Shown here in pieces: positions 4,884-16,353 of a stretch of DNA of 64,000 nt. Both the position numbers and the translations under genes were made by a program. Source of the stretch: Sandarakinorhabdus sp. AAP62 (GTDB lineage Bacteria > Pseudomonadota > Alphaproteobacteria > Sphingomonadales > Sphingomonadaceae). The DNA is taken from assembly GCF_000331225.1 (NCBI RefSeq), contig NZ_ANFY01000005.1, positions 1 to 64,000 on the forward strand. The letters are read 5' to 3'. Position 1 is the stretch's first letter; each line of letters begins with the position of its first letter. Below the pieces are notes generated by a model that was not told the DNA's origin, did not search any database, and worked only from the letters and a program-made list of their open reading frames with translations.

Positions 4884-7538
4884 TCAGAAACGCTGGCCGA
4901 ACTTGATCCCGAAGAACTGCGGCCGGATCGGGAAGTTACGCGACGAGCCCGAGCAGATCGAAATCGAGCAGAAGGTGTTCGTCGTCAGGATACCGCGCCG
5001 GTCGAACGCGTTCTGGATGAACAGGTCAACCGTCCACTTGTCCTTCTTGATGCCGGCCGAGAAATCGAACGACACGAAGCCGGCGCTGTTGCCAAGCAGA
5101 TCGTTGAGATCGGTGTTGAGATCCTGGGTGGCGCCGGTCTGATAATTGGCGGCACCCTGGATATAAAGGTCCATCTTGCTGAACGTCGTGTCATAGCGCA
5201 CCTGGGTGGTGCCCTTGAACTTCGGCTGGCGCGGCAGGCGGGTGCCATCGGCTGCGGCAACTTCGGGCGTCGGCGGGTTGCCGGGCACGAACTCGCCGAT
5301 CTGGCAGTCCGCCAGCTGGCCGATCGTCAGATTGGTGGCATTGGCGGCAAAGTTGCAGAAATTGCCCTTCAGCTTGCCATCGTTATAGGAACCCGACGTC
5401 GAGATGGTGAACTTGCCGAGCCGCAGATCGGCATCGAACTCGATCCCCTTCACTTCGGCGTTGCCGGCGTTACCGGTGATGCCGGCACCCTGGGCCCCGG
5501 CGACAACCACCGAATATTGCAGATCATTCCACTTTTCGAGGTAGATGGCAGCGTTGAAGCGGAAGATGTTGTTCCACGTCGTCTTGAAGCCGATTTCGAA
5601 GTTGGTCAGATCTTCCGACCGGAACGGCGCCACGGCATAGACCTGGCCACCGATGCGCAGCGGCCGGCCCTGGCCGCCGGGGCGGAAACCGGTGGAATAG
5701 TTGGCATAGACCATCTTGCCAGGCGCCACCTGCCAATCCAGCGCCACCTTGTGGGTTTCGCCCTGCTCACGATAGATGAGCTGGTGGTCCGGCCGGCTGA
5801 AGTTGGTGTTGAAGCAGGTCAAACGCTCCGTGGCCGACAGCGGGGTAGGGCAGCCGCCCGGCTGCAGCGTTGCCGCCACCGAGCTGCGCACGTTCTGCGC
5901 CGATGCGGCCACACCGGCAAAGCCGACCACATTCAGTTCCGTCCAGAAATAACGGATGCCACCGGTGAGCTTCAGTGTGGGCGTGATGTTGTAATGGCCC
6001 TCGGCAAACAGGGCATAGTCGCGGGTCCTGCGGTCCTGTTCGGCGAGGTAGAAGGCTTCGCCCTTCACGGCGGGCGTGCCCAGGATCATGCTGCCGCCCT
6101 GATCGACCGGCACGCCGAACGACGTGGCGAAATCGGCGCGGTCACCGCCACCCGATTCGGTATAGCCAGCGACATCGCCCAGGCCACGCGTGGCATAGTT
6201 GTCGTTGATCTCGTTCTTCTGGAACTGGTAGAAACCGCCGAAGGTGATATCGACCGGCCAGCTCGACGGTGTCTTGAACCGCAGTTCCTGGGTGAAGATA
6301 TATTCGTTGCGGTTGCCGCTGTAATATTGGGTCGGGTTCAGCAGCTTGGAGCAACGCAGCGTCGCGCCCGAGCCGGTGCAGCCCGACTTGTCGAAGAACT
6401 GCAGATAGGATTCATAGCCGGGGCCAAAGCTGTCATACGCCACGGTGTAATAGGTGTAATCGTTCAACAGCTTGATGTTGCGGCGGAAATAGCCAGTGGC
6501 GCTGACCACGTCGAAATCGCCGATATGGCCGTTGATGGTGGCCTGGGCCTGGTACCATTTGTCGTCCTGGCGGGTGTCGTCATAATCATGCACCTGCAGG
6601 TCGCCAACCTTGGGATCGAAACCGAAATAGCCCAGCGAGATCTGCCGCTGCGCAGTGATCTGCGGGTTGAAGGACCAGCCCTCGACCGGCTCCCACAGCA
6701 GCGACAGGCGGCCGCCCACTTCATCGATGCTGTTGTAATTGTTCTTCGCCTGGCGGGCATTGTTCAACGTGAAGCTGGTCAGCGGGTTATCATCGCCCAG
6801 TGCCAGCACGGCGGGCCGGCCATCGTTGAACAGGCCGTTGTTCGGCACATTGTCAACATAGCCGCCTTCCTTGCGGTAATAACCCATGGCGCGGATCGCC
6901 AGCGTTTCGCTGATGGGGATATTGATGAAGCCCTGGGCCTGGCCGCCGTAATCGCCCTTGCCGAACTTGTTGGCTTCCAGGTCCATGCCGCCCGAAAACT
7001 CGCCGATCTTCGGCTTGTTGGTGATGACGCGGATGGTGCCGGCCAGCGAGCCGGCGCCGAACAGCGTGCCCTGCGGGCCGGACAGCGCCTCGATGCGCTC
7101 CACGTCATAGACGTGGACATCGGGCAGGCCGTTCACGTTGATCGAGATATCGTCGAGATAATAGCCGGTCGCCGGATAGGCGCCACCGGCCGGCACGATG
7201 CCGCGGAAATAGACTTCGGTGCGGCCCGGCCCGAGGCCGGCGAACGACACCGACGGGATCAGCTGGGCAAAATCGGTCAGGCCCTTCACGCTGCGCTGCT
7301 GCAGCGTATCGGCGCTGAGCGCCTGCATGGAGATCGGCACCTTCTGGATGCTGGTGGCCGTGCGGGTGGCGGTAACGATGATTTCCTCGAAACCCTTTTC
7401 CTCTTCCGCGGCGGCCGTGGCCTGATCATCGGCGGCGAGTGCCGGAGACGCCATGCCAGCCAGCATGGTGGTGATGCCCAACAACCGGATGAAGCCTGCC
7501 CGGTTGCTGCCCGAGTGACGCTCCTGCGTGCGTGTCAT
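4884..7538 (-). CDS. TonB-dependent receptor
   Basis: 884 residues, the full length for an outer-membrane TonB-dependent transporter. The signal peptide covers residues 1 to about 35 (GFIRLLGITTMLAGMASPALA). A TonB-box-like FEEIIVTATRT follows near residue 50. The plug domain contains SIQKVPISMQALSADTL, GLTDFAQLIPSV, RGI and VERIEALSGPQGTLFGAGSLAGTIRV. The barrel ends with FFGIKFGQRF, a terminal Phe. The pattern GPQGTLFG...AGTIRVITNKP is typical of the large sphingomonad receptor family often used for plant- or sterol-derived compounds, but the substrate cannot be read from sequence. A strong terminator follows. The divergent neighbour is a TPR-sulfotransferase, a pairing I recall as frequent in sphingomonads. 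Confidence 0.93.
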   Translation of the reverse strand: MTRTQERHSGSNRAGFIRLLGITTMLAGMASPALAADDQATAAAEEEKGFEEIIVTATRTATSIQKVPISMQALSADTLQQRSVKGLTDFAQLIPSVSFAGLGPGRTEVYFRGIVPAGGAYPATGYYLDDISINVNGLPDVHVYDVERIEALSGPQGTLFGAGSLAGTIRVITNKPKIGEFSGGMDLEANKFGKGDYGGQAQGFINIPISETLAIRAMGYYRKEGGYVDNVPNNGLFNDGRPAVLALGDDNPLTSFTLNNARQAKNNYNSIDEVGGRLSLLWEPVEGWSFNPQITAQRQISLGYFGFDPKVGDLQVHDYDDTRQDDKWYQAQATINGHIGDFDVVSATGYFRRNIKLLNDYTYYTVAYDSFGPGYESYLQFFDKSGCTGSGATLRCSKLLNPTQYYSGNRNEYIFTQELRFKTPSSWPVDITFGGFYQFQKNEINDNYATRGLGDVAGYTESGGGDRADFATSFGVPVDQGGSMILGTPAVKGEAFYLAEQDRRTRDYALFAEGHYNITPTLKLTGGIRYFWTELNVVGFAGVAASAQNVRSSVAATLQPGGCPTPLSATERLTCFNTNFSRPDHQLIYREQGETHKVALDWQVAPGKMVYANYSTGFRPGGQGRPLRIGGQVYAVAPFRSEDLTNFEIGFKTTWNNIFRFNAAIYLEKWNDLQYSVVVAGAQGAGITGNAGNAEVKGIEFDADLRLGKFTISTSGSYNDGKLKGNFCNFAANATNLTIGQLADCQIGEFVPGNPPTPEVAAADGTRLPRQPKFKGTTQVRYDTTFSKMDLYIQGAANYQTGATQDLNTDLNDLLGNSAGFVSFDFSAGIKKDKWTVDLFIQNAFDRRGILTTNTFCSISICSGSSRNFPIRPQFFGIKFGQRF

Positions 7539-7764
7539 GTGATTATTTCCCCTGTGATAAATCTGCCTGGATGTTCCCCAACACCCACAGCTGCGAATCC
7601 CATACGCCTTTTCGCGGCGCTTTACTCGTCATCTTTGTGTAATGTGATCATCACCAATCGGAACCGTTCGTATATGGGCCATTTCCCCCATCCGGGGCGG
7701 TGCGCGACCGATTGTCTGGCGGGCGATTGACGCCTAGCGTTGGGCCATGACCAGGGGGAGCGAC

Positions 7765-9822
7765 ATGCATTCGGGCAGCACGCAATCAAGGCCGCATGAT
7801 GCCGATGCCCACGCCAGGGCACTGGCCGCTGCCACGGCGCGTCTGGCCGGCGAACCCGCCGCCGCCCTGGCTGCGGCCATCGCCTTGCTGGCCGAAGCGC
7901 CCGATCTGCTGCCGGCGCAGCTGTTGGCTGGTCAGGCGCTTTTCCGGCTTGGCAGGCTGGAGGAAGCGGTGGCGCGGCTTTCGGCGCTGGCGGTGCTGGC
8001 GCCCGAGGTGCCTGCCGTGCGCTGGGAACTGGCGCAGGCCGCCGCCGCCGCCGGCCAGCCGGAAACGGCAATCACGGCGCTGGAACAACTCACCCGGCAG
8101 TTGCCGGCGGTGCCGGGCGGCTGGTTCCTGCTCGGCCGCCAGTATCGGGCGGCCGGCCGCAGCGAAGATGGTTGGAAGGCCGATCTGCGCGGCGTGGCGG
8201 CATCCACGCAGGATCCGGAATTGCTGAAGGCGGCGCTGGCCATGCAGCAGGGCGAGCTGGATCAGGCTGCGGCCATGCTGGTGGCGCGGCAGGCGCGTGC
8301 TGGTGGCGATCCACCGGCCAGCCGGCTGGCCGCCGAAATCCGCTGGCGCCAGGGCGACATGCCGGCGGCCATTGCCGGGTTGGAAGCGGTGCTGGAACAG
8401 GCCCCCGGCTATGACATGGCGCGCGAATTCCTGATCCGTCTGCTGGTGCAGTCCAACCGGCTGCCGGACGCGCTGGCGCATGCCGAACTGCTGGCGACGT
8501 CGCCGGTGCAGAACCCCGGCCACGATCTGATCCTGGCCTCGGTGCTGGTGCACCTGGGTGAGCAGGGCCGTGCGCGCGGCCTGTATGAAGGCCTGCTGGC
8601 CAAGACCCCGAACCAGCCGCAGGTGTGGCAGAACCTGGGCCATGTGCTGAAGACGCTGGGCGAACAGGCCGGTGCCGTGGCTGCCTATCGCGAGGCCGTC
8701 ACCCGCCAGCCGACGCTGGGCGAGGCGTGGTGGAGCCTGGCCAATCTGAAGACGGTGAAGCTGGGTGCGGCCGACATCGCCGCCATGCAGGCGGCGCTGG
8801 CAACGCTGGCGGGCGAGGCCAGCCCGCGCGCCGAAGATCTGTTCCACCTGCAATTTGCACTGGGCAAGGCGCACGAGGATCTGGGCCAGGCCGAAGCGGC
8901 CTTTCGCCATTATCTGGAGGGCAATCGCCAGCGCCGCGCCGGCATTTCCCATGATGCGGATGCCTTTTCCGCCGAGATCGATGCCGCCACGGGCGTTTTC
9001 ACCGCGCCCTTTCTGGCGTCCCGCCGCGATGGCGGCTGCCCGGCGCCCGATCCCATCTTCATCGTTGGCCTGCCGCGGTCAGGCTCCACGCTGATCGAGC
9101 AGATCCTGGCCAGCCACAGCCAGGTGGAAGGCACGATGGAACTGCCCGACATGATGATGATCGCCAGCCGGCTGGCGGCCCGCGTCGAGGCCGGCGAGTT
9201 CGCCGATTTCGGTGCGATGATGGCGGCGCTCACCCCGGCGGATCGCCGGCGGCTGGGCGAGGAATATCTCGAACGCACCCGCATTCACCGCAAATCTGAC
9301 AAGCCGCGCTTCATCGACAAGATGCCCAACAATTGGCAGCACACCGGGCTGATCCGCCTGATCCTGCCGAATGCCACCATTATCGATGCCCGCCGGCACC
9401 CGATGGGCTGCTGTTTTTCCGCCTGGAAACAACATTTCGCCCGGGGCCAGAGCTTTTCCTACGATCTCGTCGAAGTGGGGCGCTATTATCGGGATTATGT
9501 CCGGTTGATGGCACATTTCGATGCGGTTGATCCCGGCGCTGTCACCCGGGTCATCTATGAGGAAATGGTGGCCGATACGGAGAACCAGGTGCGCCGGCTG
9601 CTCGGCGCGGTCGGACTGGCGTTCGAACCGGCCTGTCTCGAATTCTGGCGTAACGATCGTGCGGTGCGCACCGCCAGTTCCGAACAGGTGCGCCAGCCGA
9701 TCTTCACGGATGGCGTGGACCATTGGAAGGCCTTTGCACCGTGGCTTGGCCCGTTGACCGAAACATTGGGTGATGTGGTGACGGATTATCCGGCGGTGCC
9801 GGCCAGTCTGACGCCTATTTGA
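7765..9822 (+). CDS. TPR-repeat sulfotransferase family protein
   Basis: About 685 residues. The N-terminal 400 are Ala/Leu-rich TPR helices with repeats such as PNQPQVWQNLGHVLKTLGEQ and the following PTLGEAWWSLANLK. The C-terminal 250 are a sulfotransferase domain: the PAPS 5'-phosphate loop FIVGLPRSGSTLIEQIL, FIDKMPNNW, the 3'-phosphate-binding region IIDARRHPMGCCFSAWKQHF and YEEMVADTENQVRRLLG. The family transfers sulfate from PAPS or acts as a related transferase. I chose ATG 7765 because GGGGGAGCGAC stands directly before it; ATG 7747 is in frame but lacks a site. There is no obvious signal peptide. The gene is divergent from the TonB receptor and overlaps the end of the cytochrome gene by 8 bases. 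Confidence 0.88.
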   Translation: MHSGSTQSRPHDADAHARALAAATARLAGEPAAALAAAIALLAEAPDLLPAQLLAGQALFRLGRLEEAVARLSALAVLAPEVPAVRWELAQAAAAAGQPETAITALEQLTRQLPAVPGGWFLLGRQYRAAGRSEDGWKADLRGVAASTQDPELLKAALAMQQGELDQAAAMLVARQARAGGDPPASRLAAEIRWRQGDMPAAIAGLEAVLEQAPGYDMAREFLIRLLVQSNRLPDALAHAELLATSPVQNPGHDLILASVLVHLGEQGRARGLYEGLLAKTPNQPQVWQNLGHVLKTLGEQAGAVAAYREAVTRQPTLGEAWWSLANLKTVKLGAADIAAMQAALATLAGEASPRAEDLFHLQFALGKAHEDLGQAEAAFRHYLEGNRQRRAGISHDADAFSAEIDAATGVFTAPFLASRRDGGCPAPDPIFIVGLPRSGSTLIEQILASHSQVEGTMELPDMMMIASRLAARVEAGEFADFGAMMAALTPADRRRLGEEYLERTRIHRKSDKPRFIDKMPNNWQHTGLIRLILPNATIIDARRHPMGCCFSAWKQHFARGQSFSYDLVEVGRYYRDYVRLMAHFDAVDPGAVTRVIYEEMVADTENQVRRLLGAVGLAFEPACLEFWRNDRAVRTASSEQVRQPIFTDGVDHWKAFAPWLGPLTETLGDVVTDYPAVPASLTPI

Positions 9823-10279
9823 TCAAGCCGTCTGCGACCAGCTTGGCGCGCAGAGCGCCGTTCTCCGCCATGCTCACCCGGCCAGCGCCGCGCACGGCCG
9901 CGATTTCGGCCGGCTTGAACGGCTTGACCGGCTTGGCCGGCTTGCCCAGCGTGACGGCGTGGCTCAGGATTTCAGCAATTTCGGCATCCGACATGGTGGC
10001 CATGCCGGGCATCACGCCCATCAGCGGCTTGTCGTCGACGGTGATTGGGCCGGTCAGGCCATAAAGCACGACCCGCGCCATATATTGCCGCCCTTCCGGG
10101 CTCTGGGCGATGGTGGCGGCGCGGCCGGCAAGGCGGGGAAACTGGCCGGCAAGCCCGGAACCACTGGCCTGGTGGCACATGGCGCAGCGGGCGACAAAGG
10201 CCGCGCGCGGTTCGGCAGCCACTGGAGCAGCCAGCCCGGCAACAACCAGCAGTGCCGCAGACCAACGATTGAAATTCAT
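9815..10279 (-). CDS. Periplasmic monohaem c-type cytochrome
   Basis: 154 residues with a clear signal peptide (WSAALLVVAGLAAPVAA, cleavage near residue 22) and one haem motif, CAMCH, at about residues 32-36. The distal ligand is probably one of the Met in LMGVMPGMATMSDAEIAEIL, the usual P-G-M arrangement of class I cytochromes. A Pro/Lys-rich stretch (GKPAKPVKPFKP) leads to the C-terminus. AAGGA stands upstream of ATG 10279; the longer upstream frame has no credible start. The gene is divergent from the TetR gene and near the amine-dehydrogenase operon. It shares PEGRxY with the cytochrome at 14270, so I infer an electron-acceptor role for the dehydrogenase. Confidence 0.88.
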   Translation of the reverse strand: MNFNRWSAALLVVAGLAAPVAAEPRAAFVARCAMCHQASGSGLAGQFPRLAGRAATIAQSPEGRQYMARVVLYGLTGPITVDDKPLMGVMPGMATMSDAEIAEILSHAVTLGKPAKPVKPFKPAEIAAVRGAGRVSMAENGALRAKLVADGLIK

Positions 10280-10390
10280 GCCATCATCCTTGCCATTGCA
10301 GCCTGCGCGCGCTCGCGCGCGGTCACCGCTCATGGTCAAATACTGGACAGTCATCAAGGGGGCGTCAACCCGCTCGGCATGGGTCAAACG

Positions 10391-10415
10391 GCGCAGCTTC
10401 GTGCAAAGGCTGCGC
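10391..10415. promoter_or_regulatory. Inverted repeat between cytochrome and TetR genes, possible operator
   Basis: GCGCAGC and GCTGCGC form a perfect 7-bp inverted repeat with an 11-base spacer, 64 bases before the TetR start and 112 bases before the divergent cytochrome start. TetR proteins often bind palindromes in such divergent regions. In GC-rich DNA a repeat of this size can arise by chance, so this is only a candidate. Confidence 0.22.
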
Positions 10416-10478
10416 GCTTCTGCCAGCCGCGCAGCGCGCTTCTGGACGCCGGAACAGTGCTGCGGTAAGCCCTGATCG

Positions 10479-11144
10479 ATGGCAAAGACAGGCGCAAAGC
10501 CGGCAGGAACAGCCCCGCTCCGTCCGGGTGTGTACGGGCGTGGCACCGAAACGGTGGATCTGATCCTGACGGCCGCGCTCGACGTGCTGGTGGATGAAGG
10601 CGCGGCGGCCTTCACCCTGCGCCGCATCGCGGCGCGCTGCGGCATGCAGGTCGGCAAATTATCCTATCATTTCGCGCGCAAGGAATTGCTGATCCAGCTG
10701 CTGCTGGATGATCTGCTCGATTTCTACGAGGGCCTGCTCGATGAAAGCGTGCGCCAGCCGCATCTCGATCCGGAAGAACAGCTGCGCCGGATGATCGGCC
10801 TGGTGCTCGATGATATCGGCAGCAAGCGCACCACCCATGTCTTCACCGAGCTTTGGGCCCTTTCCAACCATAATCCGGTGGTGGCGGAACGGGTGGCGGC
10901 CTTTTACCGGCGCGCCCATGCCAATCTGGCGGCGGCGATCGCGCCGCTCAATCCGGCGCTGTCGCCGGCGCAGGTTGATGTGGTGGCCCGTTTTGTCAGC
11001 GCCACGCTGGAAGGCACCACCATCTTTGCCGGCCATGGCAAGCCCTGGGCCAACGAGATGCCGCAGTTGAAGCTGCTGGCGGTGCGTTCCATGCTGCACT
11101 TGGCCAGCACGCTCCATCCCGACGAACTGCCGGGCCTGGCCTGA
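10479..11144 (+). CDS. TetR-family transcriptional regulator
   Basis: 221 residues. The N-terminal helix-turn-helix is clear: ETVDLILTAALDVLVDEG, FTLRRIAARCGMQVGKLSYHF and ARKELLIQLLLDDLL, the AcrR/TetR DNA-binding signature. The helical ligand domain covers residues 90-215. It contains HVFTELWALSNHNPVVAERV, which resembles the TetR_C domains of regulators such as BetI-like proteins. The gene lies divergent to a c-type cytochrome and 158 bases upstream of the amine-dehydrogenase operon in the same direction, so it probably controls one or both. The ligand is unknown; an amine or an aldehyde product would be logical (inference). Confidence 0.9.
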   Translation: MAKTGAKPAGTAPLRPGVYGRGTETVDLILTAALDVLVDEGAAAFTLRRIAARCGMQVGKLSYHFARKELLIQLLLDDLLDFYEGLLDESVRQPHLDPEEQLRRMIGLVLDDIGSKRTTHVFTELWALSNHNPVVAERVAAFYRRAHANLAAAIAPLNPALSPAQVDVVARFVSATLEGTTIFAGHGKPWANEMPQLKLLAVRSMLHLASTLHPDELPGLA

Positions 11145-11302
11145 CCCTACGTCATTCGCGCATGGCCTGCGCATCGGTCTTGACGAATATTTGACACACG
11201 TCCAGCATGCTTCCGATTGGCGCTGGGCAGTCGGTCGCCGGCTTGGAGTCGCCGATGGGTGATTTCCGAAAACGGGAAATGGGGGAAAGGGCTTTGGCAA
11301 GC

Positions 11303-12520
11303 ATGATCAGTGCATCCATCACGGCAAGGCTGAGCAGGCTGGCGTGCGCCTCCCTGATCTCGGCGTTGGCCATCAGCGCCGGCAGCGCGGCCTGGGCACA
11401 AACGCCGGCACCGGCCGCCGCCACAGCAGCCGCCACCAGGGCCCCGGTCGAACCGGAAGAGCCTTTCACCCACAAATTGCCGGAATGGTCGCCGCACTGG
11501 GGCTTCGTGCGCGGCGGCTGGGAAAATGGCGGCACCCGCATCTGGAACGGCGATACCGGCAAGATGCTGGGCCTTGTTGCCACCGGGCGCTGGTCCGATC
11601 TGGCCCTCGATCCCAAGCGGCGCTTCATCTATGTCGCCGAAACCATCTGGACCAAGGTGAACCGCGGCACGCGGCAGGACATGATCTCGGTCTATGATCC
11701 GGTCAACATGGCGCTGCTGGCGGAAATCCCGCTGCCGGGCCGGTTGATCATCGGCGCCATGAAGAACAACTTCGTCATCAGCGATGATGGCAAGACCGGC
11801 TTTGTCTATAATTTCAGCCCGGCTTCCTCGGTGAACGTGGTCGATCTGGAAAAGCGCAAGCTGTCCCAGGTCGTCGAACTGCCGGGCTGCGCCAGCCTGG
11901 TGCCGGTGGCGGGTATCGGTTTTTCGGCGCTCTGCTCGGATGGCACGCTGGCCACGGTCACCGTGGGCCCGAAGACGTCGACCGTGACCAACAGCCAGCC
12001 CTTCTTCAAGGCCGCTGAAGACGGTGTGTTCGATTTCTATGCGTATGATCGCACCAAGGGCGAGATCGTCACCCTCACCTATACCGGCCTCGTGCGGACC
12101 GTGAAGCTGGGCGCAACGCCGGTGATTGGCGAGGCTTTCTCGATCCAGGCCGCCGCTGGCGTGCGCCCGGGTGATACGAAGCCACTGGATATCAACTGGT
12201 TCCCCGGCGGCCGGCAGGCGATGACGCTGCACCGCGCCACCGGCATGCTCTATGTGCTGATGCACCGCGGCGAATATTGGACGCAGAAGGCCCCCGGCGA
12301 AGAATTGTGGGTGGTCGACATGGCGACCCGCAAGGTCGTCAAGCGCGTGCCGCTGAAGAAGGAAGCCGGCAATATCGAAGTGACCCAGGACGCCAAGCCG
12401 CTGATTTTCCTGTCGGGCGATGAAGGCCTGCTGCAGGTGATGGATGCCGCCACCTACGAGATCAAGCACACGATCGAGCGTGGCGGTGGCGGCGTCATTG
12501 CCACGCCGGATATCGACTGA
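11303..12520 (+). CDS. aauB: TTQ amine dehydrogenase heavy chain (AauB/MauB family)
   Basis: The large subunit of a periplasmic quinoprotein amine dehydrogenase, which oxidises a primary amine to aldehyde and ammonia. About 405 residues form a seven-bladed propeller-type sequence without catalytic residues of its own. Seen: a signal peptide (residues 1-32, ending AISAGSAAWA) and blade-like repeats: GLVATGRWSDLALDPKRRFIYVAET, SVYDPVNMALLAEIPLPG, LDINWFPGGRQAMTLH, LYVLMHRG and LWVVDMATRKVVKRVPL. The last two with WVVDMATRK are hallmarks of the MADH/AADH heavy chain. In-frame ATGs at 11255 and 11279 are possible, but only 11303 gives a normal signal peptide; the Shine-Dalgarno spacing is not decisive. 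First gene of a B-E-D-A operon. Confidence 0.86.
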   Translation: MISASITARLSRLACASLISALAISAGSAAWAQTPAPAAATAAATRAPVEPEEPFTHKLPEWSPHWGFVRGGWENGGTRIWNGDTGKMLGLVATGRWSDLALDPKRRFIYVAETIWTKVNRGTRQDMISVYDPVNMALLAEIPLPGRLIIGAMKNNFVISDDGKTGFVYNFSPASSVNVVDLEKRKLSQVVELPGCASLVPVAGIGFSALCSDGTLATVTVGPKTSTVTNSQPFFKAAEDGVFDFYAYDRTKGEIVTLTYTGLVRTVKLGATPVIGEAFSIQAAAGVRPGDTKPLDINWFPGGRQAMTLHRATGMLYVLMHRGEYWTQKAPGEELWVVDMATRKVVKRVPLKKEAGNIEVTQDAKPLIFLSGDEGLLQVMDAATYEIKHTIERGGGGVIATPDID

Positions 12521-12528
12521 GGCGCGGC

Positions 12529-13059
12529 GTGGCGCTTGTCCTTGCCTTGGCTTGTGTCGCGGCCAGTGTCGCCGTGGCCCTGCTGCTGGCGGTTGCCGGC
12601 ATCGACAAGCTGCGTCGCCGTGATCTGCTGCCCGGCGTGATCGCCAACTATCGTCTGCTGCCGGACGCGCTGGTGGCCCCGGCGGCGCTTGCGCTGCCGG
12701 TGGCGGAGCTGGCGGTGGCGGCCGGGCTGCTGCTGGGAATGGCGCCCATCGCACCGCTGGCGGCGATCGCGCTGCTGCTGATCTTTGCAGCGGCGATGGC
12801 CATCAATATCGGGCGCGGCCGTCGTCATATCGATTGCGGTTGCGGCCATGCTGGCTTGCGCCAGTCGCTGGGCTGGGGGCAGGTACTGCGCAACCTGGTG
12901 CTGGCGGCGGCGCTGCTGCCGGCGCTGCTGGCCGATCGCGCCGCCCTGGGGGCGGCTGATCTGGCGGTGGCCATGGCGGCCGGGGTGGTGCTCTATCTGT
13001 TCATGCTGATGATCTCCGCGCTGGGAGCGTTGAACATTTCAGCGCCCGGGCGTGGATAG
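12529..13059 (+). CDS. aauE: MauE/AauE-like membrane protein for light-chain maturation
   Basis: 176 residues, very hydrophobic with about four to five membrane helices (residues 3-25, 45-70, 74-95, 115-135, 142-168). Diagnostic is HIDCGCG at residues 100-106, the conserved Cys pair of the MauE family. In Paracoccus MauE and MauD are needed for export, folding and disulfide formation of the amine-dehydrogenase light chain. It begins at GTG 12529, eight bases after the heavy-chain stop, and is followed six bases later by the MauD-like gene, so it is translationally coupled in the operon. Confidence 0.85.
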   Translation: MALVLALACVAASVAVALLLAVAGIDKLRRRDLLPGVIANYRLLPDALVAPAALALPVAELAVAAGLLLGMAPIAPLAAIALLLIFAAAMAINIGRGRRHIDCGCGHAGLRQSLGWGQVLRNLVLAAALLPALLADRAALGAADLAVAMAAGVVLYLFMLMISALGALNISAPGRG

Positions 13060-13071
13060 GAAAGAGTGGCG

Positions 13072-13677
13072 ATGTCGACCTTGCTGATCATCAACGAAGC
13101 GCTGCAATGGCTGGCCCTGGGCGCGCTGCTGGTCGCCCTGCTGGCGCTGGCGCGGCAGGTGGGCGTGCTGCATGTGCGCGTGGCCCCGGCCGGTGCGCTG
13201 GATGCCAATCGCGGCCCGGCCGTGGGCGACAAGGCGCCGGTGCTGCCGGTAACCACGCTGGCAGGCCGGCCGTTCCTGATCGGTGGCCCTGCGCCCGGTC
13301 TGCAACTGCTGATGTTCGTTTCTGCGGCCTGCCCGATGTGCAAGACGCTGATTCCGGTGGCCAAATCCTTTGCCGCCGCCGAACGGGTGAGCCTGGTGTT
13401 CATCGGCGATGATGATCCGGCGGTGCAGGCATCGCTGGTGGAAAAGCAGGGCCTCGCCGGCTTCCCGTTCATCAATGATGACAGCATTGGCCGCCAGTTC
13501 GAGGTGGACAAGCTGCCCCACGCCGTGCTGCTCGATGGGCAGGGCGTGGTGCTGGCCAAGGGCCTGGTCAACAGCCGGGAGCATCTGGAAAGCCTGATCA
13601 TCAGCCATGAAATGGGCGTGAAAAGCGTACAGGATTATATCGCTGGCCTGCCGACACCGGCAAAGGTGGACGCATGA
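13072..13677 (+). CDS. aauD: MauD/AauD-like thiol-disulfide protein
   Basis: About 201 residues. An N-terminal membrane anchor (LIINEALQWLALGALLVALLA) precedes VGDKAPVLPVTTLAGRPF, the typical start of a thioredoxin/TlpA-like fold. The active site is CPMC at about residues 87-90 (FVSAACPMCKTLIP), and the cis-Pro region is KLPHAVLLDGQGVV. MauD proteins carry this CPxC and help the Cys-rich light chain to fold in the periplasm. AGGAAAGAG stands before both the GTG at 13066 and the ATG at 13072; I took the ATG. The gene lies between the E and A genes, as in every known mau/aau cluster. Confidence 0.9.
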   Translation: MSTLLIINEALQWLALGALLVALLALARQVGVLHVRVAPAGALDANRGPAVGDKAPVLPVTTLAGRPFLIGGPAPGLQLLMFVSAACPMCKTLIPVAKSFAAAERVSLVFIGDDDPAVQASLVEKQGLAGFPFINDDSIGRQFEVDKLPHAVLLDGQGVVLAKGLVNSREHLESLIISHEMGVKSVQDYIAGLPTPAKVDA

Positions 13678-13711
13678 CCGGCCGCAGCGCAGCAGTTATG
13701 GGGGAAGAGGC

Positions 13712-14263
13712 ATGAAGCGTTTCGATTTTGACGGCCTTGGTGAAAAGCTGCTGCGCAATTTTGCCGGCAACAGCTCGCGCCGCTCGTTCCTCAGCAAGCT
13801 GGGGGCAACCATCGTGGCCGCACCGGCCTTCCCGCTGCTGCCGGTGGCCCGCGCCCAGGCGCAACCGTCCAAGCCGGACCGGTCGCCCGAAGCCAAGACC
13901 GCCTTTGCCCGCAACGCCCAGACCAAGGACGACACCAAGTGCGATTACTGGCGCTATTGCGCCATCGATGGCAGCCTGTGCTCCTGCTGCGGCGGCGGCA
14001 TGTCGAGCTGCCCGCCCGGCGCTGAACCGTCGCCGGTGTCGTGGGTCGGCACCTGCATCAATCCCGATGACGGCAAGGCCTATCTGATCGCCTATCGCGA
14101 TTGCTGCGGCAAATCGGCATGCGGCCAGTGCGGTTGCGACAACACCGATCGCGAAACTCAGCTGTACATGCCGCAGCTCAACAACAACGTGATCTGGTGC
14201 TTTGGCACCAAGAGCATGGAGTATCACTGCTCCACCGCCGTGCTGGTCGGCAAGGCCAGCTGA
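13712..14263 (+). CDS. aauA: TTQ amine dehydrogenase light chain (AauA/MauA family)
   Basis: The catalytic subunit, 183 residues. It has a Tat signal (SRRSFLSK at 22-29, cleavage after VARAQA) and 14 Cys. The two Trp that become the tryptophan tryptophylquinone are W111 (SWVGTC) and W162 (VIWCFG). Their distance of 51 residues equals Trp57-Trp108 of Paracoccus MADH. D130 (AYRDCCG) and D86 (AIDGS) lie 19 after and 25 before W111, as do Asp76 and Asp32 there, so every residue known to be needed is present. CSCCGG, SPSPVSW, NPDDGK and DCCGKSACGQC resemble the aromatic amine dehydrogenase chain of Alcaligenes faecalis more than MADH, so aau is preferred (from memory, by eye). Substrate unproven. 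Confidence 0.93.
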   Translation: MKRFDFDGLGEKLLRNFAGNSSRRSFLSKLGATIVAAPAFPLLPVARAQAQPSKPDRSPEAKTAFARNAQTKDDTKCDYWRYCAIDGSLCSCCGGGMSSCPPGAEPSPVSWVGTCINPDDGKAYLIAYRDCCGKSACGQCGCDNTDRETQLYMPQLNNNVIWCFGTKSMEYHCSTAVLVGKAS

Positions 14264-14269
14264 GGCGGC

Positions 14270-14881
14270 GTGATCGGGCACCGGGTCTGGCCTGCGGCAA
14301 CCGCGCTTGCCGGCCTGATGCTGCTGGTCGCCGCTGCCCCGCCGGCTGAAGACCCCTATGCCAGCGGGCCGGTGACCTCCTTCTCGGTGGTGGGCGATGT
14401 CAGTGGCCTGCCGGCCAGTTTCCCGGCCGACATGAACCTGGCCCAATCGGATTATGTGGAACAATGCGGCGGCTGCCACGGCATCAAGGGCAATGCCGCG
14501 CCGGCCGATCTGCCCAATCTGCAGGGCCGTGTCGGCTGGTTCATGTGCCTGCCCGAAGGCCGCGCCTATCTCACCCGGCTGCCCAATGTCGCGCGCAGCC
14601 GCATCAGCGATCACAAGCAGATGGCGGACCTGCTGAATTTCATGGTCTTTGGCCTGGGCGGCAAATCCACGCCCGCCGGCACCAGGCCGTTCACGGCCGC
14701 CGAAGTGGCCGCGGGGCGCACCACGGCCTACACCTCGGTCAGCCTCATCAAGGTGCGGGCGCAGATCGTCGACAAGGTGATCCAGAAATGCGGCGCCCCC
14801 GCCTCGCTGCGACTGATGTATCCGCCCGACGCCGTGCGCACGGCGCTTCCGCTAGCCGGCAGGGCCCGCAAGGCGGGTTAG
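14270..14881 (+). CDS. Periplasmic c-type cytochrome of the amine dehydrogenase operon
   Basis: 203 residues starting at GTG 14270, six bases after the light-chain stop. A signal peptide (ATALAGLMLLVAAAPPA) is followed by one haem site, CGGCH, at residues 65-69 with DYVEQ before it. Possible distal ligands are the Met in GWFMCLPEGRAYL or NFMVFGLGG. The C-terminal 50 residues (AAGRTTAYTSVSLIKVRAQ...) are unlike simple class I cytochromes and contain a further single Cys. In the A. faecalis aau region a small monohaem cytochrome gene also follows the light chain, so this is the likely electron acceptor (inference from position). It overlaps the convergent serine-hydrolase gene by 4 bases. Confidence 0.86.
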   Translation: MIGHRVWPAATALAGLMLLVAAAPPAEDPYASGPVTSFSVVGDVSGLPASFPADMNLAQSDYVEQCGGCHGIKGNAAPADLPNLQGRVGWFMCLPEGRAYLTRLPNVARSRISDHKQMADLLNFMVFGLGGKSTPAGTRPFTAAEVAAGRTTAYTSVSLIKVRAQIVDKVIQKCGAPASLRLMYPPDAVRTALPLAGRARKAG

Positions 14882-16353
14882 GGCTTGGCCGGCGCTGGTT
14901 GCCAGCGCCATTCCAGCGCCTGCACCTGCGCCATCGGCGTGGGTGCCAGCAGGGCATAGGCGATCACCATGCCGCGCTCGCAATTCCAGAGATATTCGCC
15001 TTCCAGCGCCCCCATGGCACGCACGCCGGGCGGCGTCGGGCAGTTGCCGGCCCTGGCCTTGATCGCCGCGATATCGGCATTGCGGTGGGCGGCATCGCGA
15101 TCCATCAGCAGGTTCACCGCCGGCGCCATGCTGCCGACGCTGCCACTGGTCAGCGCCTTGTGCACCGGGATCACCAGCTGGGCCAGGGCAGGCGACAGTG
15201 GCACCACGTCGGTGCGCACCAGTCCGGCATCGTGCATCGCGATCAGCGCGTCCCACGCCGGTGCCGACGGGCCGGCATAGGTGCGGTTGGTCAGCACGAA
15301 GATGCCCCAGCCGCTTTCCGGCGCGATGATCATGTGGCTGCCATAGCCGGGATAGCCGCCGCCGTGGAACGCCACCCGGCCCATCGTGCAATCATCACCA
15401 ACCCTGAGCCCGCCGCCATAAACCACGGCGATGCTGCAGGGCGAATTGGCGGCCATGGTCGGTCGCATCACCCGGCGCGGTGAGCCTTCACCGCGCAGCA
15501 GCGAGCGCACCGTCACGCGTGGGCCGGTTTCGCCGATCTGCCCCGGCCAGGCCGACAGGAGATGATCGATCCAGCGCGCATAGTCCGGCCCGGTGGTGAT
15601 CACGCCGCCCATGGCGCCGAAGGTGCCGGGGCCCATCTCGGGCTCCGCCTTCCAGGTGCCATCTTCCCAGCGCCAGCCGGTGGCCAGCTTGGCGCGCGGC
15701 ACGTCGGCAACGTTGAAGGTGGTGCTGGTCATGCCCAGCGGCTGGAACCGGCGGCGGGCGATCTCGGCTTCAAAGGGCTGGCCGCTCACGTTGCGGATGG
15801 TGCGGCCCAGCAGGGCATAGCCCAGATTGCTATATTCGTGGGTCAGGCCGGTGGCGCGGGTGAACGGCACGCCGGCCTTGAGCAAGCCTGTGAAGTCCGC
15901 TTCCGGCAGCGGCGTCTGGCGATCGCCCCACGGATCATCGGTGACGAAGCCGGCCATGTGATGCACCAGATCGGTGACGGTGAGACCGTCGCCCCAGCCG
16001 GCGACTTCGGGCACATGCACTGCCAGCCGATCGTCCAGCCGCAACTTGCCTTCCGCGGCAAGGTCATAAAGGGTCAGCGCGGTGAACGCCTTGGTCATGC
16101 TGGCGATGCGGAAGCGCGTGTCTGGCTCCACCGGGCGGCCGCTGGTGACATCGGCGAGGCCGGATACGCCCGAATGCACCAGGCCTTCGCCGCGCTTGAC
16201 GATCCCCCAGGTCAGCCCGGGAACCTGATTGGCCTGCGCCCATTCGCGCATGCTGCCATCGATGCGGGTGGCCAGATCGGCGGGCAGGGGGGCCGCGCTG
16301 ACAGGTGCCGCCAGCAACGCCCCAAAGGCCAGCGGCGCCAGAAACGCCCTCAC
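14878..16353 (-). CDS. Periplasmic serine hydrolase (class C beta-lactamase / esterase-like)
   Basis: 491 residues with a signal peptide (AFLAPLAFGALLAAPVSA, cleavage near 20). The penicillin-binding fold is shown by SMTK at residues 85-88 (nucleophile S85, base K88), YSN at 174-176 and HGGG in VAFHGGGYPGYGSH, the equivalent of the KTG box. About 100 residues after the domain have no recognised motif. Such proteins are mostly esterases or D-amino-acid peptidases; true beta-lactamase activity cannot be claimed. It is the last gene of a minus-strand operon and overlaps the DUF3299 gene by four bases (ATGA type), so its role is probably linked to that cluster. Confidence 0.88.
   Translation of the reverse strand: MRAFLAPLAFGALLAAPVSAAPLPADLATRIDGSMREWAQANQVPGLTWGIVKRGEGLVHSGVSGLADVTSGRPVEPDTRFRIASMTKAFTALTLYDLAAEGKLRLDDRLAVHVPEVAGWGDGLTVTDLVHHMAGFVTDDPWGDRQTPLPEADFTGLLKAGVPFTRATGLTHEYSNLGYALLGRTIRNVSGQPFEAEIARRRFQPLGMTSTTFNVADVPRAKLATGWRWEDGTWKAEPEMGPGTFGAMGGVITTGPDYARWIDHLLSAWPGQIGETGPRVTVRSLLRGEGSPRRVMRPTMAANSPCSIAVVYGGGLRVGDDCTMGRVAFHGGGYPGYGSHMIIAPESGWGIFVLTNRTYAGPSAPAWDALIAMHDAGLVRTDVVPLSPALAQLVIPVHKALTSGSVGSMAPAVNLLMDRDAAHRNADIAAIKARAGNCPTPPGVRAMGALEGEYLWNCERGMVIAYALLAPTPMAQVQALEWRWQPAPAKP

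Follow-up and report, generated by a model that had tools for sequence, protein, structure and literature searches.

How is tryptophan tryptophylquinone (TTQ) formed in an enzyme whose genes come without mauG, when MauG is the textbook maker of this cofactor? The question is raised by an amine dehydrogenase operon in the 64,000-nucleotide stretch of DNA analysed here (positions 1 to 64,000 of contig NZ_ANFY01000005.1 from Sandarakinorhabdus sp. AAP62, hereafter the window), where the gene of a TTQ light chain (13712..14263, forward strand) is followed, 6 bases after its stop, by that of a monohaem cytochrome c (14270..14881, forward strand). Two kinds of cytochrome accompany TTQ operons: type A, with a CxGCH motif and a missing Met segment, and type B, with a CxxCH motif and a later Met. 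According to profile scores, the operon cytochrome of the window is of type A (160 bits with the type A profile, 43 with that of type B), and a second, divergently transcribed cytochrome upstream (9815..10279, reverse strand; PF00034/PF13442) is of type B (159 bits against 53). The reading we favour, for which we see the odds as evenly balanced, is that type A replaces MauG in TTQ maturation, the operon cytochrome being a candidate MauG substitute. A bolder one, at a probability of roughly 0.4, is that most TTQ enzymes in nature owe their maturation to such a single-haem, Met-less cytochrome of the c552 type and not to MauG, the MauG route having replaced it later and only in the clade of methylamine dehydrogenase (MADH).

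MauG was found neither in the window nor in the rest of the genome. Profiles for MauG, amicyanin, MauF, MauJ and MauN gave no match in the window (E ≤ 0.01; MauL and MauM were not profiled), in agreement with the original prediction, which had seen none of mauF, mauG, mauL, mauM and mauN there and had called for a search of the full genome for MauG and MauF. The assembly has 3.13 Mb and a completeness rating of 100%; in it, the cytochrome c peroxidase (CCP)/MauG family PF03150 had no match, a profile built from six MauG proteins reached a best E-value of only 0.10, and a MauF profile matched nothing, the same profile giving 6.6e-85 in a control genome (G955); these genome-wide searches covered MauG and MauF, and not MauJ, MauL, MauM or MauN. 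The PF03150 search was positive in its controls, E. coli and M. acetivorans, as well as in 11 of 30 TTQ genomes of the order. An unlinked MauG in the window's own genome was accordingly rejected. More generally, an unlinked di-haem peroxidase of the CCP/MauG family as the maker of TTQ seems very improbable: PF03150 is absent from 28 of 50 genomes with a full-length TTQ light chain (19/30 and 9/20), that of the window included, where such an enzyme would survive only if too divergent for the family model. The other 22 genomes, each with at least one PF03150 protein somewhere, are what speaks for it.

If MauG is absent, what takes its place next to the light chain? We examined 147 distinct light-chain loci, 143 of them with at least 700 bases downstream, and counted type A where it stood directly after the light chain or after an intervening type B gene. 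Within 1.5 kb, type A was found in 134 of the 143, mauG in seven, neither in two, and both in none; of the loci with less than 700 bases downstream, type A is present in two, and in the other two the sequence stops with the light chain. The seven mauG loci belong to P. denitrificans, P. kondratievae, P. yeei, P. methylovorus, Indioceanicola, Methylobacterium and G955 (L157/L170), six of them being hand-picked plasmid records (15 of 30 matches taken). Because the 80 named loci are the top-ranking ones among 581, and lean towards the query's side of the tree, the even genome samples weigh more. In these, 58 places with a full-length light chain carry type A in 56 cases, mauG in one and neither in one; by sample, type A was present in 34/34 places for the order, 11/11 for the phylum minus members of the order, and 11/13 for the class (G549 and G578, with partial or broken light chains, are left out of all counts).

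The converse also holds. Among 398 phylum genomes, type A matches at E ≤ 1e-12 occurred in exactly 11 genomes, namely those with a full-length light chain, and with matching copy numbers (two where there are two). Among 296 genomes of the order, strong matches (at least 129 bits) occurred in the 30 light-chain genomes and in one other, G014, where the match sits near a contig start in an assembly of 800 contigs; six further genomes gave weak matches of 31 to 53 bits that were not counted as type A. As these searches scored the best candidates of a loose first pass (10 to 14 per genome) with a profile, A2, that includes rows from some of the tested genomes, they speak to specificity and not to independent sensitivity. 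The known accessory genes are less regular: of the 75 type A loci that extend 3.2 kb or more upstream, 60 have both mauE and mauD adjacent, and in the Acetobacteraceae loci L108, L117 and L128, as well as in the second copy of L122, type A follows the light chain with neither of them adjacent (absences of MauE, MauD and type B depend throughout on small custom profiles). Type A is thus a steadier partner of the light chain than the known accessory genes.

The constancy of type A would also be expected of an electron acceptor, which brings in the main rival: type A would be a dedicated acceptor with an unusual or weak sixth ligand, and TTQ would arise by autocatalysis or through a general peroxidase. 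We consider this unlikely, yet it accounts for several of our observations. No other partner gene seen is as constant as type A, its fold is still that of an electron-transfer cytochrome (T. thermophilus c552, see below), and in loci where no type B is seen it could itself be the acceptor. Against it, a Met-ligated type B cytochrome is also encoded nearby in 33 of 68 loci with long flanks, adjoining the light chain in 19 and lying elsewhere in the flank in 14. Moreover, two loci with mauG but no amicyanin match in the stretch, L132 and L170, are also devoid of type A, so that, in these two cases, type A appears to alternate with mauG and not with the electron acceptor. A further point against an acceptor role is the loss of the Met-bearing segment, which is odd for an electron carrier.

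This loss is uniform. In type B, the aligned distal Met is present in 56 of 56 sequences, mostly as Met-Pro. In type A, the segment that ends in this Met is gapped in 122 of 122 aligned sequences, and the Pro that follows it is kept in 121 of them, including the window, where it is P82 of the mature protein just past the missing segment (codon 14582..14584, forward strand, verified). On this point the initial 33 type A seeds are circular, because the motif rule used to sort them shut out Met-Pro; later members were chosen by profile score, and the gap was read from the alignment of those, 127 sequences leaving 122 once identical ones were removed. Left out of this set were L096 (contig end), the halves of L118 (split frames), a weak hit in L140 and a type B hit in L089 that has no haem motif. 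The haem-attachment motif of the operon cytochrome, CGGCH (14465..14479, forward strand), contains C43, C46 and H47, invariant in 82 sequences and verified at the codon level; it is the only CxxCH in this protein, which has no Pfam match. The divergent cytochrome likewise has a single CxxCH (CAMCH), together with the distal-Met motif GVMPGM. Given the missing segment in all 122 sequences, we rejected the identification of type A as an ordinary cytochrome with a Met ligand, like type B.

A profile of 82 type A sequences aligned with T. thermophilus c552 in two pieces (E about 4e-25), skipping some 20 residues, 49-70 of 1c52, that enclose Met69, which we take to be the haem ligand of c552. The predicted structure of type A (pLDDT, a per-residue confidence score, 87; pTM, its counterpart for the overall fold, 0.75), a model that contains no haem, has c552 as its best structural match (Z 11.8, root-mean-square deviation 2.5 over 110 residues, 28% identity); Foldseek returned the same protein with a probability of 1.00, at an E-value of only 6e-3. 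As modelled, then, type A is of the known c552 fold, from which it is distinguished by having lost the Met-bearing segment.

We propose the following course of events. The operon would encode a TTQ amine dehydrogenase of the periplasm, in a subclass that is related to MADH yet outside it. By extension from the MADH family, its light chain would be exported by the twin-arginine translocation (Tat) pathway, and MauE and MauD would help disulfide formation in it. Heavy and light chains would then assemble, and W111 and W162 of the light chain would become TTQ without MauG, with the oxidising power most likely supplied by type A, encoded directly after the light chain. Since type A has its proximal His and lacks the distal Met segment, its iron may bind H2O2 or O2 and, given an open site and peroxidase-like chemistry, form a ferryl species. 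This species would draw electrons at long range from the tryptophans of the precursor. MauG uses two haems for this; type A would take the peroxidatic part of MauG alone, with its distal side empty. The electrons of amine oxidation would leave through another carrier, here probably the divergent Met-ligated type B cytochrome. The original prediction had coupled the enzyme to one of two dedicated cytochromes; a role as acceptor is consistent with the divergent one and doubtful for the operon cytochrome, which is without a distal-Met segment. For comparison, MauG is described as having a five-coordinate peroxidatic haem and a second haem with Tyr-His ligation (PMC6405878).

Several observations weigh against this proposal and have to be set beside it. 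The open coordination site of type A is predicted from sequence alone. None of Met, His or Lys is fully conserved as a candidate ligand beside the His of CxxCH. The most shared of them is Met, which fills 51% of one column against 38% for Leu, followed by Lys (45%) and His (32%); just past the conserved Pro, His occurs in 29 of 122 sequences and Met in 13, with Arg in the window. However, when the rebuilt stretch is considered in single type A sequences, it holds Met in 81 of 121, His in 37 and Lys in 26, with 25 of 121 devoid of any Met, His, Lys, Cys or Tyr, and that of the window contains possible ligands (SDHKQM). As so many single sequences carry Met, His or Lys there, six-coordination of the type A haem by differing residues, with an irregular sixth ligand, may obtain, which would favour the acceptor role. 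The same is true of the 35 of 68 loci with long flanks in which no type B was seen. One haem, moreover, cannot form the bis-Fe(IV) state of MauG. The PF03150 proteins of 22 TTQ genomes, the skew of the named loci and the hand-picking of most mauG loci, given above, count on the same side, as do the two loci in which heavy and light chains are accompanied by neither type A nor mauG: L155/L169 (G879), a genome with a second operon that does carry type A, and L124, which is left unexplained. Both are bare heavy-light pairs without mauE and mauD.

These two loci are also what could be expected if, after disulfide formation, TTQ arose by autocatalysis or by the action of general oxidants encoded elsewhere, with type A serving a secondary purpose, for instance as a sensor of haem or redox state, in the removal of peroxide or as a chaperone of the light chain. 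The first tryptophan hydroxylation in MADH is indeed held to be autocatalytic (PMC7876137). Nevertheless, such a scheme leaves unexplained why type A and the light chain occur together almost one to one, and why type A is absent from all seven mauG loci, and we hold it to be improbable. Maturation by type A accommodates both patterns, and it remains the reading we prefer.

In order to place the enzyme, we inferred a light-chain tree (66 of 148 light chains) and a concatenated heavy and light chain tree (49 of 91 pairs), both thinned by identity and length and both built by a quick method without bootstrap, so that the support values given here are not bootstrap percentages. In the light-chain tree, which has two long rows and an Alcaligenes faecalis row of 110 residues only, a branch with a support of 99 sets 36 rows (the window clade with 25, the seven mauG loci and four others) apart from the aromatic amine dehydrogenase (AADH) of A. 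faecalis and 29 type A rows. The concatenated tree contains no A. faecalis row; in it, a matching branch (99) has the window on one side and the aau locus of P. aeruginosa (L049) on the other. The mauG loci form a single clade (100) in both trees, with the window outside. Membership of the window enzyme in the AADH clade and in the mauG/MADH clade were therefore both rejected; judging by these phylogenies, it is a third group, nearer MADH but neither MADH nor AADH by descent. Of the original assignment to the aau type, the gene order and the monohaem cytochrome stand and the descent does not, whereas its expectation of a light chain outside true MADH agrees with the trees.

Type A loci lie on both sides of the mauG clade. 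Unless the mauG clade contains the root, this is most simply explained by a single replacement of type A by mauG. In the concatenated tree, the two bare pairs (L124:2317-4096 and L169:7109-8901), without matches to mauE, mauD, type A or mauG in their stretches, group together with a support of 99.

The remaining genes of the operon agree with the original prediction of a TTQ-type amine dehydrogenase operon ordered B-E-D-A, followed by a c-type cytochrome and preceded by a TetR regulator and a divergent cytochrome, all of which lie where it had placed them. On the forward strand, the TetR-family regulator with a BetI-type C-terminal domain (10479..11144; PF00440, PF13977) precedes the heavy chain (11207..12520), which matches PF06433 with 162 bits (cut-off 21) as well as the MADH and AADH heavy chains of the PDB, and for which the ATG at 11303 may be an alternative start with a cleaner signal peptide. 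The MauE-like membrane protein (12529..13059; PF07291, 85.4 bits) and the MauD-like thioredoxin-fold accessory protein (13066..13677) come next, and then the light chain, which has an SRRSFL twin-arginine leader and matches PF02975 with 183 bits (cut-off 25). Of the models for MADH itself, only that of the light chain is passed (TIGR02659, 200.7 bits against a cut-off of 196.85); the heavy chain (TIGR02658, 169.8 against 454.45) and MauD (TIGR02661, 164.8 against 188.6) fall short.

The light chain also has the residues that the original prediction had singled out, W111 and W162, D86 and D130 and 14 Cys, as confirmed by alignment and codon check. The presumed TTQ tryptophans W111 (codon 14042..14044) and W162 (codon 14195..14197), which we take to correspond to W57 and W108 of MADH, are invariant in a 16-sequence alignment (A1). 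Their spacing of 51 recurs in 7/7 mauG-linked and 112/136 type A-linked light chains, and the 14 Cys compare with 12 in six of the seven mauG-linked ones. Two of the 136 type A-linked light chains, L020 (G155; light chain 1306-1845) and L151 (G571), differ at the first catalytic Asp, presumably equivalent to D32 of MADH, where they have Ser (CAISG/CALSG against CAIDG). A decayed operon, or one that makes no TTQ, is barely credible for the window: all genes are open, the catalytic Trp and Asp residues are kept, no sign of decay was seen in the window, and the light chain of a genome of the same genus (L002) is 96% identical. The closest named light chain, among the best 80 of 581 loci, is that of Sandarakinorhabdus oryzae (95% identity).

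As to substrate, an aromatic amine, which the original prediction had put forward among others, is not favoured by the sequence, since at WCF and YRDCC the letters of the light chain are like those of MADH. Despite these letters, methylamine is not claimed either, because Phe55 of the MADH heavy chain, which we take to be a specificity residue, has no clear alignment with the heavy chain of the window.

Other loci vary on this theme. In L111 (16297-18535; Komagataeibacter swingsii) and L122 (1975-4419; Acetobacter syzygii), a second heavy-light-type A cluster stands beside a complete operon, with no mauE or mauD between heavy and light chain. In L118 (Asaia platycodi, 6525-10439), the heavy chain and the type A gene are each split over two frames, which suggests a decayed operon or sequencing errors. 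On a plasmid of Sphaerotilus sulfidivorans (L138, about 5646-7049), type B and type A genes come after a partial light chain that has no heavy-chain match in its vicinity, and this light-chain region looks like a remnant. Two Novosphingobium plasmids (L050, L051) have a TonB-dependent receptor just upstream of the amine dehydrogenase genes and aromatic-degradation genes near, hinting at uptake of a larger substrate. An operon with type A is also present in Novosphingobium aromaticivorans DSM 12444, where the type A gene is SARO_RS19985 on pNL2. In the window itself, the operon is flanked by a tetratricopeptide repeat protein with a C-terminal sulfotransferase domain (7747-9822; PF13469), beside the divergent cytochrome and with no evident link to it, and by a beta-lactamase-family serine hydrolase on the opposite strand (14878-16353), with a 4-base overlap at the end of the type A gene.

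In the titles and abstract openings of the open-access literature, outside which much of the work on TTQ lies, we found neither this cytochrome nor TTQ formation independent of MauG reported, and no description of a cofactor-maturation oxidase of its kind; PMC2147049 concerns an enzyme with cysteine tryptophylquinone (CTQ). What appears to be new within that literature is the loss of the Met segment, the near one-to-one linkage, and the absence of MauG across genomes. What was already known, to our knowledge, is an A. faecalis cluster without mauG and with a monohaem cytochrome. If most TTQ operons do without MauG, TTQ formation is an open question for most of the family, and one small gene can now be named for it, with the lost Met-bearing segment as its defining lesion. 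Remote oxidation of tryptophan by one haem, if true, would bear on the need for the paired haems of MauG.

The mau operon of P. denitrificans (L048) agrees with the window in the order of its heavy-chain, MauE, MauD and TTQ light-chain genes, and its light chain lies on the same side of the branch with a support of 99 and has the WCF and YRDCC letters. In contrast, the window has no match to mauF, amicyanin, mauJ, mauG or mauN, its light chain is followed by type A and has 14 Cys, and its heavy chain is far below the cut-off of the MADH model. In A. faecalis, aauBEDA is reportedly followed by a monohaem cytochrome gene, and no mauF, mauG, mauL, mauM or mauN is known from that cluster; the window has the B-E-D-A order and the monohaem cytochrome in common with it, as well as the lack of mauG. 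The AADH light chain shares with that of the window the cysteines of CSCC and ACG.C, but in the tree the latter does not group with AADH; in P. aeruginosa, the aau locus (L049), of the same group as A. faecalis AADH, carries both type A and type B. Unlike MauG and the CCP family (PF03150), type A has one haem instead of two and belongs to another family, with no match in Pfam; the likeness is in the proposed role and in a haem proposed to be without a distal ligand. In fold, type A would stand closest to T. thermophilus c552 (1dt1, 1c52), from which it differs by the lack of about 20 residues (49-70 of 1c52), and with which it shares the predicted fold and the C-terminal extension.

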